Below are positions 58,811 to 64,000 of a stretch of DNA of 64,000 nt, in pieces. The notes beneath the pieces were generated by a model. That model had not been told where the DNA came from. It saw only the letters and a list, made by a program, of their open reading frames with translations, and did not search any database. The stretch is taken from NCBI RefSeq assembly GCF_016916835.1, contig NZ_JAFFIX010000028.1, forward strand, positions 1 to 64,000. The letters run 5' to 3'. A program made the position numbers and the translations under genes. Position 1 is the first letter of the stretch. Each line of letters begins with the position of its first letter. This DNA comes from Actinacidiphila bryophytorum. Its GTDB lineage: Bacteria > Actinomycetota > Actinomycetes > Streptomycetales > Streptomycetaceae.

Positions 58811-59200
58811 ATGACGTCGCAGAAGACCACCCAGACGATGAAGCCCGCGACCGCGGCGAAGAAGCTGGGTGTGTACCTCCAGGCCACCCCCGCGGAGTTC
58901 CAGGAGGGTGTCGTGTCCCGCAGCGAGCTGAACGCGCTGCAGGCCGACCCGCCGCAGTGGCTGCAGGACCTGCGCAGGGAAGGCCCGCACCCGCGTCCGG
59001 TCGTCGCGGCGAAGCTGGGCGTGTCGATCGCGGGCCTGGCCCGCGGCGGCGTCACCGAGCCGCTCACCACCGCGCAGATCGACGAGCTGAAGCAGCGCAG
59101 CCCCGACTGGCTGCGGCGCGAGCGCGCCACGCAGGCCGAGGTGCGCAAGGAGGCGGCCCGGATCAGGGACAAGCACGCAGGGCGCGACGCCGGGCGGTAG
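58811..59200 (+). CDS. DUF5997 family protein
   Basis: A 129-residue soluble helical protein: KPATAAKKLGVYLQATPAEF near the N-terminus, RSELNALQADPPQWLQDLRR, and a repeated-looking segment later (VAAKLGVSIAGLARGG, with LTTAQIDELKQRSPDWLRRE). The halves share an AAKLGV...PxWL(Q/R) pattern, suggesting internal duplication. The family has no known function. It is divergent from the HTH-less LysR-like gene. ATG at 58811. Confidence 0.85.
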   Translation: MTSQKTTQTMKPATAAKKLGVYLQATPAEFQEGVVSRSELNALQADPPQWLQDLRREGPHPRPVVAAKLGVSIAGLARGGVTEPLTTAQIDELKQRSPDWLRRERATQAEVRKEAARIRDKHAGRDAGR

Positions 59201-59374
59201 TCCCCTGGCCGTCGAGCCGGGCAGGGCCGCCCACCCGACGTAATCTGGCGTAATCCGGCCGACTCGCGACGCCGATAGTGACGCGCGGCCCGACGCGCTG
59301 CATCCTGGCTCAATGGTGCCTCCTGGTCTGAGAGGATTTCGGCACCTACGACGCAGGTGGACTGGAGGCCGGGC

Positions 59375-60271
59375 GTGGCGAGTACGGCACTCACCGCGGA
59401 CAAGCGGAAACTCGTCTTCGACTCCTGGGGCGACCCGCAGGGACACCCCGTGTTCCTGCTGCACGGCACCCCCGGCAGCCGCAAGGGTCCGCGCCCGCGC
59501 TCGATGGTGCTCTACCAGCTCGGCATCCGCCTGATCGCCTACGACCGCCCCGGCTACGGGCAGTCCACCCGGTTGGCGCACCGCTCCGTGGCACATGCCG
59601 CGGACGACGTCGTGGCCATCGCCGACCACCTCGGGCTCGGCGGCTTCTCGGTCGTGGGCCGCTCGGGCGGCGGACCGCACGCGCTGGCCTGCGCCGCGCT
59701 GCACCCCGAGCGGGTGCTGAGCGCCGGCGTCCTGGTGAGCCTGGCGCCGCCGGACGCCCCCGAGCTGGACTGGTTCGAGGGCATGACCAAGTCCAATGTG
59801 CGCGAGTACCGCAACGCCCGGGAGAACCTCGAAGAGCTGCAGACCACGCTGGTGCAGAACGCGGACGCCATCAAGGCCGACCCGGGTTCGCTGCTGTCGG
59901 GCCTCGACGAGGAGATGCAGGCGGTCGACCGGCGGGTGGTGGCGGACGCCGGCATCCGGGGCATGCTCAAGCAGAACTTCCTGATGGGCGTCGGCGAGAG
60001 CGCCGACGGCTGGATCGACGACGCGGTGTCCTTCTGCAAGCCGTGGGGCTTCGACCCGGCCGGCATCACCGTGCCGACGCTGCTGTGGCACGGCGAGCGG
60101 GACGTGTTCTCGCCCGTCGGGCACTTCCAGTGGCTGGCCGGCCGCATCCCGCGGGCCACGGTCATCCTGCAGCCCTCGGCGGCGCACTTCGACGCCGTCT
60201 CCGTGCTGCCGCGGGTGCTGGGCTGGCTCAAGGACCAGGCGCGCAAGGACGCCGCCGCCAGGACGGCCTGA
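59375..60271 (+). CDS. Alpha/beta-fold hydrolase
   Basis: A 298-residue hydrolase. The oxyanion region is FLLHGTPGSRKG, nucleophile S97 lies in VGRSGGGPHA, acid D243 in HGERDVFSP and base H271 in SAAHFDA. A cap region lies between about residues 120 and 215. An in-frame GTG six codons earlier is less likely because GGAGG (59364-59368) is correctly spaced for GTG 59375. The substrate is unknown; an esterase or lactonase is most plausible. Confidence 0.88.
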   Translation: MASTALTADKRKLVFDSWGDPQGHPVFLLHGTPGSRKGPRPRSMVLYQLGIRLIAYDRPGYGQSTRLAHRSVAHAADDVVAIADHLGLGGFSVVGRSGGGPHALACAALHPERVLSAGVLVSLAPPDAPELDWFEGMTKSNVREYRNARENLEELQTTLVQNADAIKADPGSLLSGLDEEMQAVDRRVVADAGIRGMLKQNFLMGVGESADGWIDDAVSFCKPWGFDPAGITVPTLLWHGERDVFSPVGHFQWLAGRIPRATVILQPSAAHFDAVSVLPRVLGWLKDQARKDAAARTA

Positions 60272-60284
60272 CCCGTACCGCGTG

Positions 60285-60311
60285 ACCCGCCCCCGGCGCC
60301 GGGGAGCGGGT
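60285..60311. terminator. Bidirectional terminator
   Basis: ACCCGC and GCGGGT flank the perfect 14-base palindrome CCCCGGCGCCGGGG, between two convergent genes. A second dyad (CGTGCC/GGCACG) follows at 60312-60328. Confidence 0.75.
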
Positions 60312-60328
60312 CGTGCCGCGGGGCACGG

Positions 60329-63300
60329 TCACACCGGGTGCGGGTCCAGCTCCAGGCCCACCCGCTGGCCGCTGCGCAGCCGGGCCACCCGGGGGTGCTT
60401 GGGGCCGAGCTTGCGGGCGATGGCGTCCAGCCCTGCTCCGGCCAGCTGCTCGGCCTCCGCCGCCCGGTCGGTCTCCAGCAGCAGGATCGACAGGTTGGCC
60501 ACGCAGGTGAGCGTCGAGGGGTGGTCGCCCCCGAGGCTGGCGTGCAGGGCGGCGTGCGCCTCCCGGTAGTGGGCCTCGGCCTGCTCGGAATTGCCCAGCG
60601 CCGCATTGGCGTTGCCCAGGTTCACCAGGCAGTTCATGCTGAACGGGTGCTCGGCGCCGAGCAGTTTCTTCAGCGAGGCGCTGGACTGCTCGCACAGCGC
60701 CAACGACTCGTGGACGCGGTCGGTGTTGAGCAGGTTGATGCCGTGGTTGACCGCGCAGGCAAGGGTGTTGGGGTGGCTGTCGCCGAGCGCCCTGCGGAAC
60801 TTGCCGAGCAGCTCCGCGGTCTCCTGGTAGGCCTCGTCGTGGCGTTCGGCCGCGGCCAGGTGCCCGGCCAGGCCGAGGCGCACCACCAGCGTCTCCGGTG
60901 AGTCGTCGCCGAGCCTGCGGCGGCAGTTGTCCAGCACTCCCTGGCTCAGCTCGATCGCCTCGTTCAGCATGCCGAGCCGGCGCAGGGTGACCGCGAGCGC
61001 CTTCGCCGCCTCCTGCGCCGAGGGCGACTCGGGGCCGAGGTTGGGCTGCGCGCACGCGGTGTTGTAGGCGCTGCGCAGGGTGTGCGCGGAGGACTCGTAG
61101 TCACCGCAGGAGCGCTGGTCGCGGCCGAGGTTGATCACCGACGCGAGTGTGTAGGGGTGGTCGTGGCCCAGCGTCTCGGAGCGGTAGTCCCGGTTGCCGC
61201 TGTCGACGTCCAGGGCCGAGTAGCAGTCGCCGGCCATCCGCATGGACACCGCGAGGTTGTTGGCGGCGACCAGGCTGCGCGGGTGGTCCTCGCCGAAGAG
61301 GTCCACGGACCGGTCGAAGGTCTCGCGGTCGATGTCCAGCGCCTCGCGGACCCGGCCGACGGCCCGCAGGTCGGCGGTGAGGCTGCCGGCGGTCATCAGG
61401 GTCTGCGAGTCGTCGTCGCCCAGGGTGGCGCGCTGCCGGGCGATCACGTCCCGGTCGATGTCCAGGGCGCGTTCGTACCAGCCCTGGGAGCGCAGCACGT
61501 TGGCGATCTGGAAGCGCAGGTGCAGCGTCCACCGGTCGTCGGGTCCTGCCTCCTTGTCCCAGCGCACCAGCAGTTCCTCGCCCAGCTCGACGGCCTCGTC
61601 GTACTCGCCGCGGGTGCGCAGGTAGCGCAGCCACTCGGTCATCAGGCGGCGGATGCGGTCGTCCAGCGACAGGCGCATCCACGGGGTCTTCAGGTGCGGC
61701 CAGATGGTGTTGTAGCGCGGCCAGTTCTCCGGGCGCTCCACGTCGCCCTCCGAGGGCCTGGCGCCGCTGAGCACGTTGCGTACGGTGCCGCGGGCCGCGG
61801 ACTGCTCCTCCTCGGTCATCGAGGCGCGGACGGCGGCCTGCACCAGCCGGTGGACCTGGAGGCTGCGGCTCTTGCGGTCGACCTTGGCCAGGGCGTAGCG
61901 GCTGAGCTGCTGGGTGGCGCGGGAGACCAGGGCGGTGCCCTCGCTGGCGGGCTGCAGCGCGCTGAGCGCGTCGGTCATCTCCCTGCCGTGCAGCAGGTCC
62001 AGCGAGATCGGGTCGGCGCCGAAGTGCGCGCAGATCTGCAGCAGCCGGTGCGCCACCGGCGAGTTGAGCTGCTGGACCGACAGGTTCCAGGTGGCGCCGA
62101 TCTGCAGCGGGTAGGTGTCGGCCGCCGCCTGCCCCGCGGTCAGGTCGGCGAGCTGCTGTTCCAGCAGGCTGAGGTAGACCGCCGCCTCCTCGCCGGTCTC
62201 GTTGAGCCAGGCCGCGGCCTGGTCGATGGCCAGCGGCAGGTCGCCGAGCGCGTCGGCGACGGCGTCGGCCTCCTCGGCGCTGATCGCGGAGACCCGGTGC
62301 GAGAGGTGGTCGACGCTCTCGGCGCGGGTGAAGACCTCGACCTCGACGCGGGCGGCGATCTGCGCCCAGCCCTCGTTGCGGGTGGTGATCACCACGTGCC
62401 CGCCGGGCCGGTTGACCAGCAGCCGTTCGATCGACTCGGGCGTGGTGGCGTTGTCGAAGATCAGCAGCCACCGGTCGTACACCTCGCCGCGGCGCAGCAC
62501 GTCGCGTACGGCGTCGGCGGTGGCGCTGATGCTGTCCCGGTCGGCGAGGCCGAGCGGTCCGGCCAGCTCGGAGTACTGGCGCAGCGCGAGGTCGCCGAAC
62601 TCGGCCTCGATCCACCACACGACGTCGTAGTTGGCGCGGTAGCGGTAGGCGTACTCGATGGCCAGCTGGGACTTGCCCACACCGCCCATGCCGTGCAGCA
62701 GCGTCGCGGTGCCGGCCTCGGTGAGCCGGTCGCGCAGGCTCTCCAGCAGCTCCTCGCGGCCGGTGAAGGCGGGGTTGCGCACCGGCGCGGCCCACACCGG
62801 TGGTTCCGCGCCGGGGTAGCGGGGCCGGCCCTCGGTGGCGTCGGCGGGGTGCTCGCGCTGCTCGGTCGGCGCGTCCATCGCCCGCAGCAGCGCCTTGCGG
62901 GCCGAGTCCTCGTTGAGGGCGCTCAGGTCCACCGGGGTGCGGTCGGAGAAAGGGTGGTCGAGCCGGATGTTGCCGACCTTGATCGGGACCAGCGCGCGCC
63001 GCGACCCCATCGGGTCGGTGGCCGCCACCGCCTCCCACACCGCCCTGGCCTGCGGGGACTTCTGGTAGGTCGCGGACAGGATCGCGACGGTGCGCGAGGC
63101 GGCCCGCACCTTGCTGTCGGTGTCGTCGCGCAGCGGCACCCCGGCCCCCGCCCCGTCCTGGGAGCGGGCGTCGCCGACGGTGAAACCGGCCTCGCTGAGC
63201 ACCCGGGTGATCCAGTCCGCCCACATCTGGTCCTCGGGCACATGGCTGAGGAAGACATGCGTGGGGTCCGGCGGCCGGCGCCGCACCACCGTCTTGAGGT

Positions 63301-64000
63301 AGTGCTGCCGCTCCTCCTCGCTCATCGGCGCCAGCGCGGTGACCTCGCCCTCGGTGATGACCTCGGTCAGCCGCTCGCAGGCCGCCAGCAGCGAGGCGGG
63401 GGTGCCCTGTTCGTCGCGGAAGGTCGCCAGGATCTCCTCGTAGGCGTACGTCGGCTTGTACGGCACCTCGACCTGGCCCCAGTAGCGGCGCAGGTCCACC
63501 CCGCCGGTGCGGGCCAGCAACTGGTCGAAGGTCAGCCGCACCTTGGCCCTCGCCGCCTCCAGGCGCTCGGCCTCGGAGTCCTCCACCCGCATCGGCACCG
63601 GCAGGATGCGGATCCTGCGGTCGCCGTAGGTGTCCTCGACCCGGCGGGCGACCGCGGCGGCGCCCTCGATGCTCTGGTCGTTGTGCGTGAAGCAGTTCAC
63701 CAGGACGTCGGGGAAGTGGATGGTGCAGATGTCGGAGATGTCGCTGAGGCCGGTCCTGCTGTCGACCAGCACGTAGTCGTACTCGCGGCGGAACTGCCGG
63801 CACAGCGCGTCGAGGAACTGCCCGCCGAACTGGTCCTCGTAGAAGACGTTCCAGTTGAACTGCGAGAAGATCGACGAGTAGTTGCGGTCCTGGCGGCCGG
63901 CCGAGATGAAGTCCAGCAGGCCGCCGCCGGCGAAGCTCCAGTTCACCGGCGAGACGGCCTGGGTGATGTCGGCCTGGCTGGTGATCCAGGCCTCCAGGCG
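60329..64000 (-). CDS. fxsT: FxsT-type TIR/NB-ARC/TPR protein, N-terminus outside window
   Basis: The visible 1223 residues begin inside a ParA/SIMIBI-like ATPase domain (FRREYDYVLVDSRTGLSDIS); its P-loop would lie beyond 64000. Next is a TIR-like region (about residues 243-370; HVFLSHVPEDQMWADWITRV), then an NB-ARC STAND ATPase with P-loop GMGGVGKS (about 433-441) and LLIFDNATTP as Walker B. About ten TPR units of the D-x-HP-x-T-L type run from about 790 to the end. This layout matches the FxSxx-COOH peptide system TPR protein of actinobacteria, whose genes include a peptide precursor and a radical-SAM enzyme. Those partners would lie right of the window. A role in sensing or defence is plausible. 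Confidence 0.82.
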   Translation of the reverse strand, partial: RLEAWITSQADITQAVSPVNWSFAGGGLLDFISAGRQDRNYSSIFSQFNWNVFYEDQFGGQFLDALCRQFRREYDYVLVDSRTGLSDISDICTIHFPDVLVNCFTHNDQSIEGAAAVARRVEDTYGDRRIRILPVPMRVEDSEAERLEAARAKVRLTFDQLLARTGGVDLRRYWGQVEVPYKPTYAYEEILATFRDEQGTPASLLAACERLTEVITEGEVTALAPMSEEERQHYLKTVVRRRPPDPTHVFLSHVPEDQMWADWITRVLSEAGFTVGDARSQDGAGAGVPLRDDTDSKVRAASRTVAILSATYQKSPQARAVWEAVAATDPMGSRRALVPIKVGNIRLDHPFSDRTPVDLSALNEDSARKALLRAMDAPTEQREHPADATEGRPRYPGAEPPVWAAPVRNPAFTGREELLESLRDRLTEAGTATLLHGMGGVGKSQLAIEYAYRYRANYDVVWWIEAEFGDLALRQYSELAGPLGLADRDSISATADAVRDVLRRGEVYDRWLLIFDNATTPESIERLLVNRPGGHVVITTRNEGWAQIAARVEVEVFTRAESVDHLSHRVSAISAEEADAVADALGDLPLAIDQAAAWLNETGEEAAVYLSLLEQQLADLTAGQAAADTYPLQIGATWNLSVQQLNSPVAHRLLQICAHFGADPISLDLLHGREMTDALSALQPASEGTALVSRATQQLSRYALAKVDRKSRSLQVHRLVQAAVRASMTEEEQSAARGTVRNVLSGARPSEGDVERPENWPRYNTIWPHLKTPWMRLSLDDRIRRLMTEWLRYLRTRGEYDEAVELGEELLVRWDKEAGPDDRWTLHLRFQIANVLRSQGWYERALDIDRDVIARQRATLGDDDSQTLMTAGSLTADLRAVGRVREALDIDRETFDRSVDLFGEDHPRSLVAANNLAVSMRMAGDCYSALDVDSGNRDYRSETLGHDHPYTLASVINLGRDQRSCGDYESSAHTLRSAYNTACAQPNLGPESPSAQEAAKALAVTLRRLGMLNEAIELSQGVLDNCRRRLGDDSPETLVVRLGLAGHLAAAERHDEAYQETAELLGKFRRALGDSHPNTLACAVNHGINLLNTDRVHESLALCEQSSASLKKLLGAEHPFSMNCLVNLGNANAALGNSEQAEAHYREAHAALHASLGGDHPSTLTCVANLSILLLETDRAAEAEQLAGAGLDAIARKLGPKHPRVARLRSGQRVGLELDPHPV

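Follow-up and report, generated by a model that had tools for sequence, protein, structure and literature searches.

A gene for a large protein combining a ParA-like ATPase, TIR, NB-ARC and TPR repeats was identified at the right edge of a 64,000-nucleotide stretch of Actinacidiphila bryophytorum DNA (RefSeq assembly GCF_016916835.1, contig NZ_JAFFIX010000028.1, positions 1 to 64,000; hereafter the window). It is almost certainly fxsT of a stand-alone FxSxx-COOH (FxsA-B-C-T) system. The open reading frame (ORF) occupies positions 60329-64000 of the minus strand and runs 300 bases past the window edge, so that the complete gene (60329-64300, minus strand) encodes 1323 amino acids (aa). The likely start, picked by eye, is a GTG at 64300 behind AGGAGG, with a 4-base overlap with the stop of fxsC. 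The protein scored 884.8 bits towards the FxsT equivalog NF040586, for which the cut-off is 300. Hidden Markov models placed a KGGVGR-type ParA/MinD-like ATPase at aa 12-221 (137.6 bits, cut-off 90), TIR_2 at aa 349-470 (68.5 bits, cut-off 28), NB-ARC at aa 516-716 (36.3 bits, cut-off 23.5) and DUF7779 at aa 743-832 (48.2 bits, cut-off 27), followed by TPR_12 in eight and TPR_10 in six stretches. As all of these scores exceeded the curated cut-offs, the frame is not a chance frame. A preliminary description of the window had proposed both the frame and the FxsT identity, and its count of about ten TPRs was fair. It had also called the domain combination unusual; this holds in part, but 96 ORFs of the same four-domain build were found in 135 compared loci, all of which had been picked for holding FxsT or FxsB.

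The partner genes predicted to the right of the window were present on the contig (C21), and FxsC was found in addition to the expected precursor and radical S-adenosylmethionine (rSAM) enzyme. The gene order between 69434 and 60329, read along the minus strand, was fxsA, fxsB, an AAC(3)-like gene, a second TIR gene (TIR2), fxsC and fxsT, with short gaps or overlapping genes. fxsA (69243-69434, 63 aa) encodes the small protein with an F-x-S-x-x-COOH end, in this case FNSSI; no NCBIfam model matched it. It lies 19 bp ahead of fxsB (67070-69223, 717 aa), the product of which scored 549.9 bits towards the rSAM/SPASM model TIGR04269 (cut-off 370). The AAC(3)-like gene (66206-67063, 285 aa), the TIR-only TIR2 gene (65563-66213, 216 aa) and fxsC (64297-65559, 420 aa) complete the row. 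The C-terminal domain of FxsC matched TIGR04276 with 150.5 bits (cut-off 55). The N-terminal TIR-like model NF040588 (cut-off 130) gave 119.8 bits for FxsC and 156.7 bits for the TIR2 protein. Neither an absence of partners nor a closer similarity to another TPR family was found.

The system to which the locus belongs is known but has yet to be characterised. The FxSxx-COOH system (NF040586/TIGR04269/TIGR04276) was described in outline in eLife 2020 (PMC7159879), and the accessible part of that description contains the same components: a precursor ending in FxSxx, an rSAM/SPASM enzyme FxsB, a TIR-like FxsC and an AP-ATPase-TPR protein FxsT with a MinD/ParA-like domain. A literature search found no study of the function of the system. 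The present locus adds a Glu-bearing second TIR next to an FxsC without Glu, an AAC(3)-fold protein, an HExxH domain that is degenerate and a convergent hydrolase. Three points are new: the TIR Glu changes its place, a hydrolase gene is linked, and HExxH is lost along with residues of the core peptide.

The compared sample consisted of the present locus (L009, C21:56001-76000), 80 stretches around FxsT or FxsB matches in the same and related genomes, and 54 loci with FxsB from named genomes. Three of the 80 stretches were from the same genome as the window, and some genomes contributed several. Domain profiles built from the present locus were run over all six-frame ORFs of the 135 loci. FxsT proteins with ParA, TIR, STAND and TPR parts, called by ParA, STAND and TPR, are here named type I (96 ORFs; 82 once copies 95% alike were removed). 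Those without ParA are named type II (n=19, one of which, L130, is a frame-split type I), and those with STAND and TPR only are named type III (n=19). Counting all its forms, 75 of the 100 relatives had FxsT-family proteins above the cut-off, often as several copies.

The ParA part of the present FxsT reads KGGTGRT, in which the Lys of Walker A is replaced by Arg, as in 95 of 96 FxsTs. The DWDLE and DSRTG motifs were mostly retained in these proteins, with the Glu of DWDLE present in 79/96 and otherwise Asp. The replaced Lys next to retained motifs indicates that the domain is constrained and may not hydrolyse ATP normally. The MinD/ParA-like domain of FxsT is predicted to be inactive in the available text of PMC7159879, and the residues give no support to FxsT as a typical ParA. 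The NB-ARC domain appeared intact, with the Walker A Lys in 95/96 and the Walker B Asp in 96/96, and a VHR motif was present. The suggested likeness to STAND immune sensors is thus borne out for the NB-ARC domain, and an immune function is a conjecture.

The preliminary description suggested that the TIR region be checked for a catalytic Glu. The column for this residue was set from the TIR2 protein and agrees with plant TIR alignments. The present FxsT has Val in this column, and Glu was found in only 3 of 80 non-redundant type I rows, so the residues give no support to FxsT itself as the NADase. Type II FxsTs, from loci without a detected FxsC, carried Glu in 14/19 rows; three of the remaining five had no residue at the column, one had Gln and one was the frame-split four-domain gene. 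In the present system FxsC has Gln and TIR2 has Glu. Over the sample, the FxsC column contained E 63, Q 18 and D 2 (n=83), and the TIR2 column E 52, D 1 and one gap (n=54). The 82 non-redundant type I systems comprised 33 with FxsC Glu and no TIR2, 18 with FxsC Glu and TIR2, 14 with FxsC Gln and TIR2, seven with TIR2 alone (some of which may be FxsC proteins with a C-terminal domain missed by the profile), two with FxsC Asp alone and eight unassigned. FxsC with Gln occurred only where a Glu-bearing TIR2 was present (14/14 non-redundant). Of the 74 assigned systems, 72 had a Glu-bearing TIR in FxsC or TIR2; the Glu is thus kept, but in differing subunits. Judged from these residues, TIR2 appears to be the catalytic-type TIR of the present system and FxsC a Gln pseudo-enzyme. 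In two Actinoplanes systems (L148, L150) the FxsC residue in this column was Asp, and their FxsT had no detected TIR.

In structure models, aa 12-194 of FxsC matched TIR folds, with plant and animal proteins tied. The best match was chain B of 4c6t, a RPS4/RRS1 entry (Z 11.1, root-mean-square deviation 3.2, 135 aligned), and others were TLR15 (Z 10.7) and RUN1 (Z 10.2-10.6). The C-terminal domain of FxsC was modelled with a receiver/flavodoxin-like fold (predicted local distance difference test score 92.9); its best Z of 9.0, towards arginine decarboxylase wing domains, was tied with 8.9 towards the StyR receiver. Foldseek gave no E under 0.001 for the whole FxsC model or the C-terminal model, and no homology is claimed for the latter. 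The AAC(3)-like protein has the Antibiotic_NAT fold and a His in a HLAEY-like segment that was conserved in 43 aligned copies. It was closest to FrbF (3sma, 160.4 bits), a natural-product enzyme. It remained under the cut-offs of all five matched NCBIfam AAC(3) models (best 160.5 against 270), and it was therefore not called a drug-resistance gene.

The HExxH site in the alpha-KG hydroxylase domain of the present FxsB reads EGVQQ, so that the motif is lost; NF040587, the model for the form with this loss, gave 92 bits on this protein, below its cut-off of 225. This loss was compared with the core peptides of 56 non-redundant fused rSAM-HExxH systems in which a precursor was found, eight of the 64 fused systems having been dropped for lack of an F.S.. 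end. V[A/S/Q] directly ahead of the FxS motif was present in 37/39 systems with HExxH kept, the two exceptions being L137 and L049, and in 0/17 with HExxH lost. Inspection by eye of six dropped systems with HExxH kept revealed likely precursors with F-x-A in place of F-x-S (L050, L054, L091) or with longer ends, FQSFSSK for example (L106, L107, L108), and five of these six have Val-Ala ahead of F. The other two dropped systems, L120 (HExxH kept) and L128 (lost), had no clear core peptide. A quickly built rSAM tree called for two HExxH changes and four changes in the core trait, and both HExxH losses coincided with a core change. With so few changes no significant result is attainable in a sign test (median p 0.5). 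The association of HExxH loss with a changed core peptide is therefore suggestive and amounts to two independent events. The AAC(3)-like gene was considered as a cause and rejected; it is carried by 16/18 lost systems but also by 27/51 kept ones, so there is no clean link. Among 59 cores selected for F.S.., in which F and S are conserved by construction, position 2 was N in 38 or Q in 12, and the last residue was I, L or V in 54. According to the part of PMC12636437 available, HExxH relatives hydroxylate or oxidatively cut peptides, and in PflC small residues such as Ala favour cutting. Together with the V[A/S/Q] pattern, this leads to the guess that Val-Ala ahead of FxS could be the target of the HExxH domain, and that the present lineage may have dropped this step.

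An alpha/beta-hydrolase gene (59357-60271, plus strand, 304 aa) with conserved Ser, Asp and His is convergent to fxsT, with a spacer of 57 bp (60272-60328) between the two genes. Positions 60262-60340 form a strong hairpin (-48.5 kcal/mol, z -2.16, 1/200 shuffles equally good), which is a candidate terminator. A convergent hydrolase gene was found within 2.5 kb of the fxsT end in 75 of 96 type I genes, and in 0/18 true type II and 0/19 type III genes. Non-redundant type I systems had it in 61/82 cases, and four of the other 21 were at a contig or stretch edge. The Ser was found in GRSGG in 76/76 proteins, and the Asp and His in 75/76, with one gap. At 366 bits or more there were 42 matches in the present genome and its relatives, the next match scoring 312 bits. 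By comparison of coordinates by hand, 38 of the 42 adjoin FxsT on the same contig, and three others are about 0.6 kb or less from the end of a contig that carries no remaining Fxs gene. The profile was built from fxs-linked genes, so this linkage count is partly circular. Mirror-tree correlations over 58 systems, species history included, were 0.90 for hydrolase-FxsT, 0.85 for hydrolase-FxsB and 0.85 for FxsT-FxsB, and would fit co-inheritance of the hydrolase and fxs genes. Of 23 NCBIfam models that matched the hydrolase, none exceeded its cut-off and none was Fxs-named. In one relative (G036, C99) the hydrolase gene stands in tandem behind fxsT, and an array on C113 of the same genome contains two adjacent hydrolase genes. 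On this linkage and conservation, the convergent hydrolase is likely to be a component of the Fxs system, newly proposed here.

Tandem SLATT_3-SLATT_1 proteins with two transmembrane segments were linked to type I clusters in 22 of the 135 loci, including L107, L120, L062, L105 and L138. Pfam confirmed the domains in L062 and L120 only, and the other loci were found with a profile built from L120. Nine of the genes are convergent at up to 3.5 kb from fxsT, 12 are upstream of fxsA on the other strand and one is in a fragmented locus (L170).

The best explanation of these observations, which is held tentatively and at somewhat below even probability, is a peptide-licensed switch resembling nucleotide-binding leucine-rich repeat (NLR) receptors, with the catalytic TIR as a separate subunit. 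Its direct basis is gene content, domain state, conservation and linkage. FxsB would act on the C-terminal F-x-S motif of FxsA and form a cyclophane there. The free C-terminus of the modified FxsA would then be the ligand of the FxsT TPR superhelix and set the ATP-driven NB-ARC switch; a free carboxyl end two residues past the expected cyclophane would suit a TPR groove. The peptide may either hold the system off or turn it on. Activated FxsT would oligomerise, and its Glu-less TIR could serve as an adaptor gathering FxsC, the Gln pseudo-enzyme, and TIR2, which would act on NAD+ or a related nucleotide. The response would come from downstream effectors, which in some relatives would be SLATT membrane proteins; a part for the linked hydrolase among them is more speculative. 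The cyclophane chemistry in this strain, peptide-TPR binding, oligomerisation, NADase activity and effector role are all inferred. The whole would resemble a resistosome split over several proteins, with a Glu-less sensor, a TIR enzyme in trans and a home-made ribosomally synthesised and post-translationally modified peptide (RiPP) licensing the ready state. If true, an immune-type receptor would be controlled by a self-made modified peptide. A fuller version, in which the cyclophane-licensed immune switch has its Glu in FxsT, FxsC or TIR2 depending on the lineage, and the hydrolase and the SLATT proteins of relatives are the executors, is doubtful. Predictions that can now be tested are the active and pseudo-enzyme TIRs, Val-Ala as the HExxH target residues and the serine hydrolase as a gene of the system.

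Several observations weigh against the peptide-licensed switch. The SLATT profile, run over the 135 loci, found no SLATT gene in the present locus. PADLOC gave partial domain matches only, PDC-M28B with 76.6 bits (FxsT aa 7-61) and pVip with 29.2 bits (FxsB). A Glu two residues past the catalytic column was found in 23/80 type I FxsT rows, including the present one; a shifted TIR register in FxsT is therefore conceivable, though the following Trp is in place. The presence of Glu does not prove NADase activity. The Gln form of FxsC is one clade (97/93 support), hence one event, and a parallel, repeated origin was rejected. ATP-binding cassette (ABC) transporter ATPases of mixed kinds were near the cluster in up to 28/73 loci, and permeases in 12 and 9, so the peptide may be exported. 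Such export would suit a system in which FxsA and FxsB make a secreted RiPP, either a toxin or a signal, and FxsT and FxsC provide self-immunity or production control; the FrbF-like acyltransferase-fold protein and the hydrolase would then fit product tailoring. A secreted RiPP is nevertheless unlikely, as the precursor end is nearly fixed in the F.S..-filtered cores, and no single conserved exporter or leader-peptidase family was seen when the 14 largest clusters of flanking genes and ten representatives were crudely surveyed, which mildly favours an intracellular peptide. FxsT might instead be a non-immune STAND regulator of development or stress, for which the peptide would gauge metabolism or redox state inside the cell. 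FxsB is expected to require S-adenosylmethionine and iron-sulphur clusters, the family is common and often multi-copy among relatives, and occasional linkage to CRP-like regulators is mentioned in the part of the eLife 2020 paper available (PMC7159879). The same text gives TIR, STAND and SLATT together as typical of conflict systems, and the ten flanking-gene representatives included no regulator, which is a weak argument; a regulator of this kind is considered fairly improbable.

The role of the hydrolase can be separated from that of the switch. Instead of an effector it could be an FxsA-processing enzyme, either trimming FxsA or taking off an acyl group as an aminopeptidase or esterase. This comes close to an even chance and is compatible with the peptide-licensed switch. 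By profile the hydrolase is similar to esterases, with a weak likeness to prolyl aminopeptidases, and the gene was found with fused rSAM-HExxH FxsB in 58/62 non-edge systems, with split or rSAM-only FxsB in 0/9, and in 3/7 non-edge systems without a detected FxsB. Processing fits less well with its presence in 18/18 systems with HExxH lost and with the absence of the AAC(3)-like gene from 20 of the 58 hydrolase-bearing fused systems. An accidental or inherited proximity of the hydrolase gene is very improbable, despite the many alpha/beta-hydrolases of Actinobacteria. As a control for circularity, 48 matches in newly met genomes, possibly overlapping with the named training genomes, were analyzed: 42 had an FxsT ParA domain at 9 kb or less, 37 of them being convergent to it and five at the other end, the cluster head, on the same strand (three inspected). 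The other six were unlinked, as was one of the 42 first-sample matches, located away from Fxs genes. None of six sampled lower-scoring homologues had an Fxs gene within about 6 kb. The DUF5997 gene (58811-59200) that adjoins the hydrolase was found beside it in 1/135 loci, the present one, most loci extending only 2-3 kb beyond.

The system was compared with other known ones. Plant TIR-NB-LRR proteins and bacterial STAND sensors likewise combine TIR, NB-ARC and repeats in a sensor, and the modelled FxsC TIR fold resembles plant and animal TIRs; the present system differs in that its sensor TIR is without Glu, the catalytic-type TIR is separate and the sensor is coupled to a RiPP. VMAP ternary conflict systems with FxSxx peptides, in the available text of PMC7159879, have a TIR-AP-ATPase-TPR protein with rSAM and HExxH genes close by. 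Type II FxsT loci look alike, as judged from these genes. In contrast to the present locus, they have no ParA front, FxsB is mostly split, the TIR Glu is mostly kept in FxsT and there is no linked hydrolase. That text names a hydrolase and SLATT for systems other than FxSxx-COOH only. The rSAM part of FxsB matched ChlB (PDB 9gm3) with 269.5 bits; ChlBH is cited as an rSAM-HExxH fusion in the available part of PMC12636437, whereas the present motif is replaced by EGVQQ. The AAC(3)-like protein shares fold and conserved His with FrbF and AAC(3) enzymes but is below the AAC(3) cut-offs. The ThcB4 model gave 16 bits at the locus (cut-off 220).

A scan of named genomes placed the nearest named relatives of the present FxsB in Streptomyces. 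At least two further FxsT-family genes and two further FxsB genes over cut-off were found in the genome of the window, on C18 (86012-88492, 91115-92197 and 111857-112957) and C11 (117305-119788). FxsT/FxsC modules arrayed in tandem, as well as FxsT genes in tandem, were observed in L113 and L184 (G036 C113), L144 and L149.

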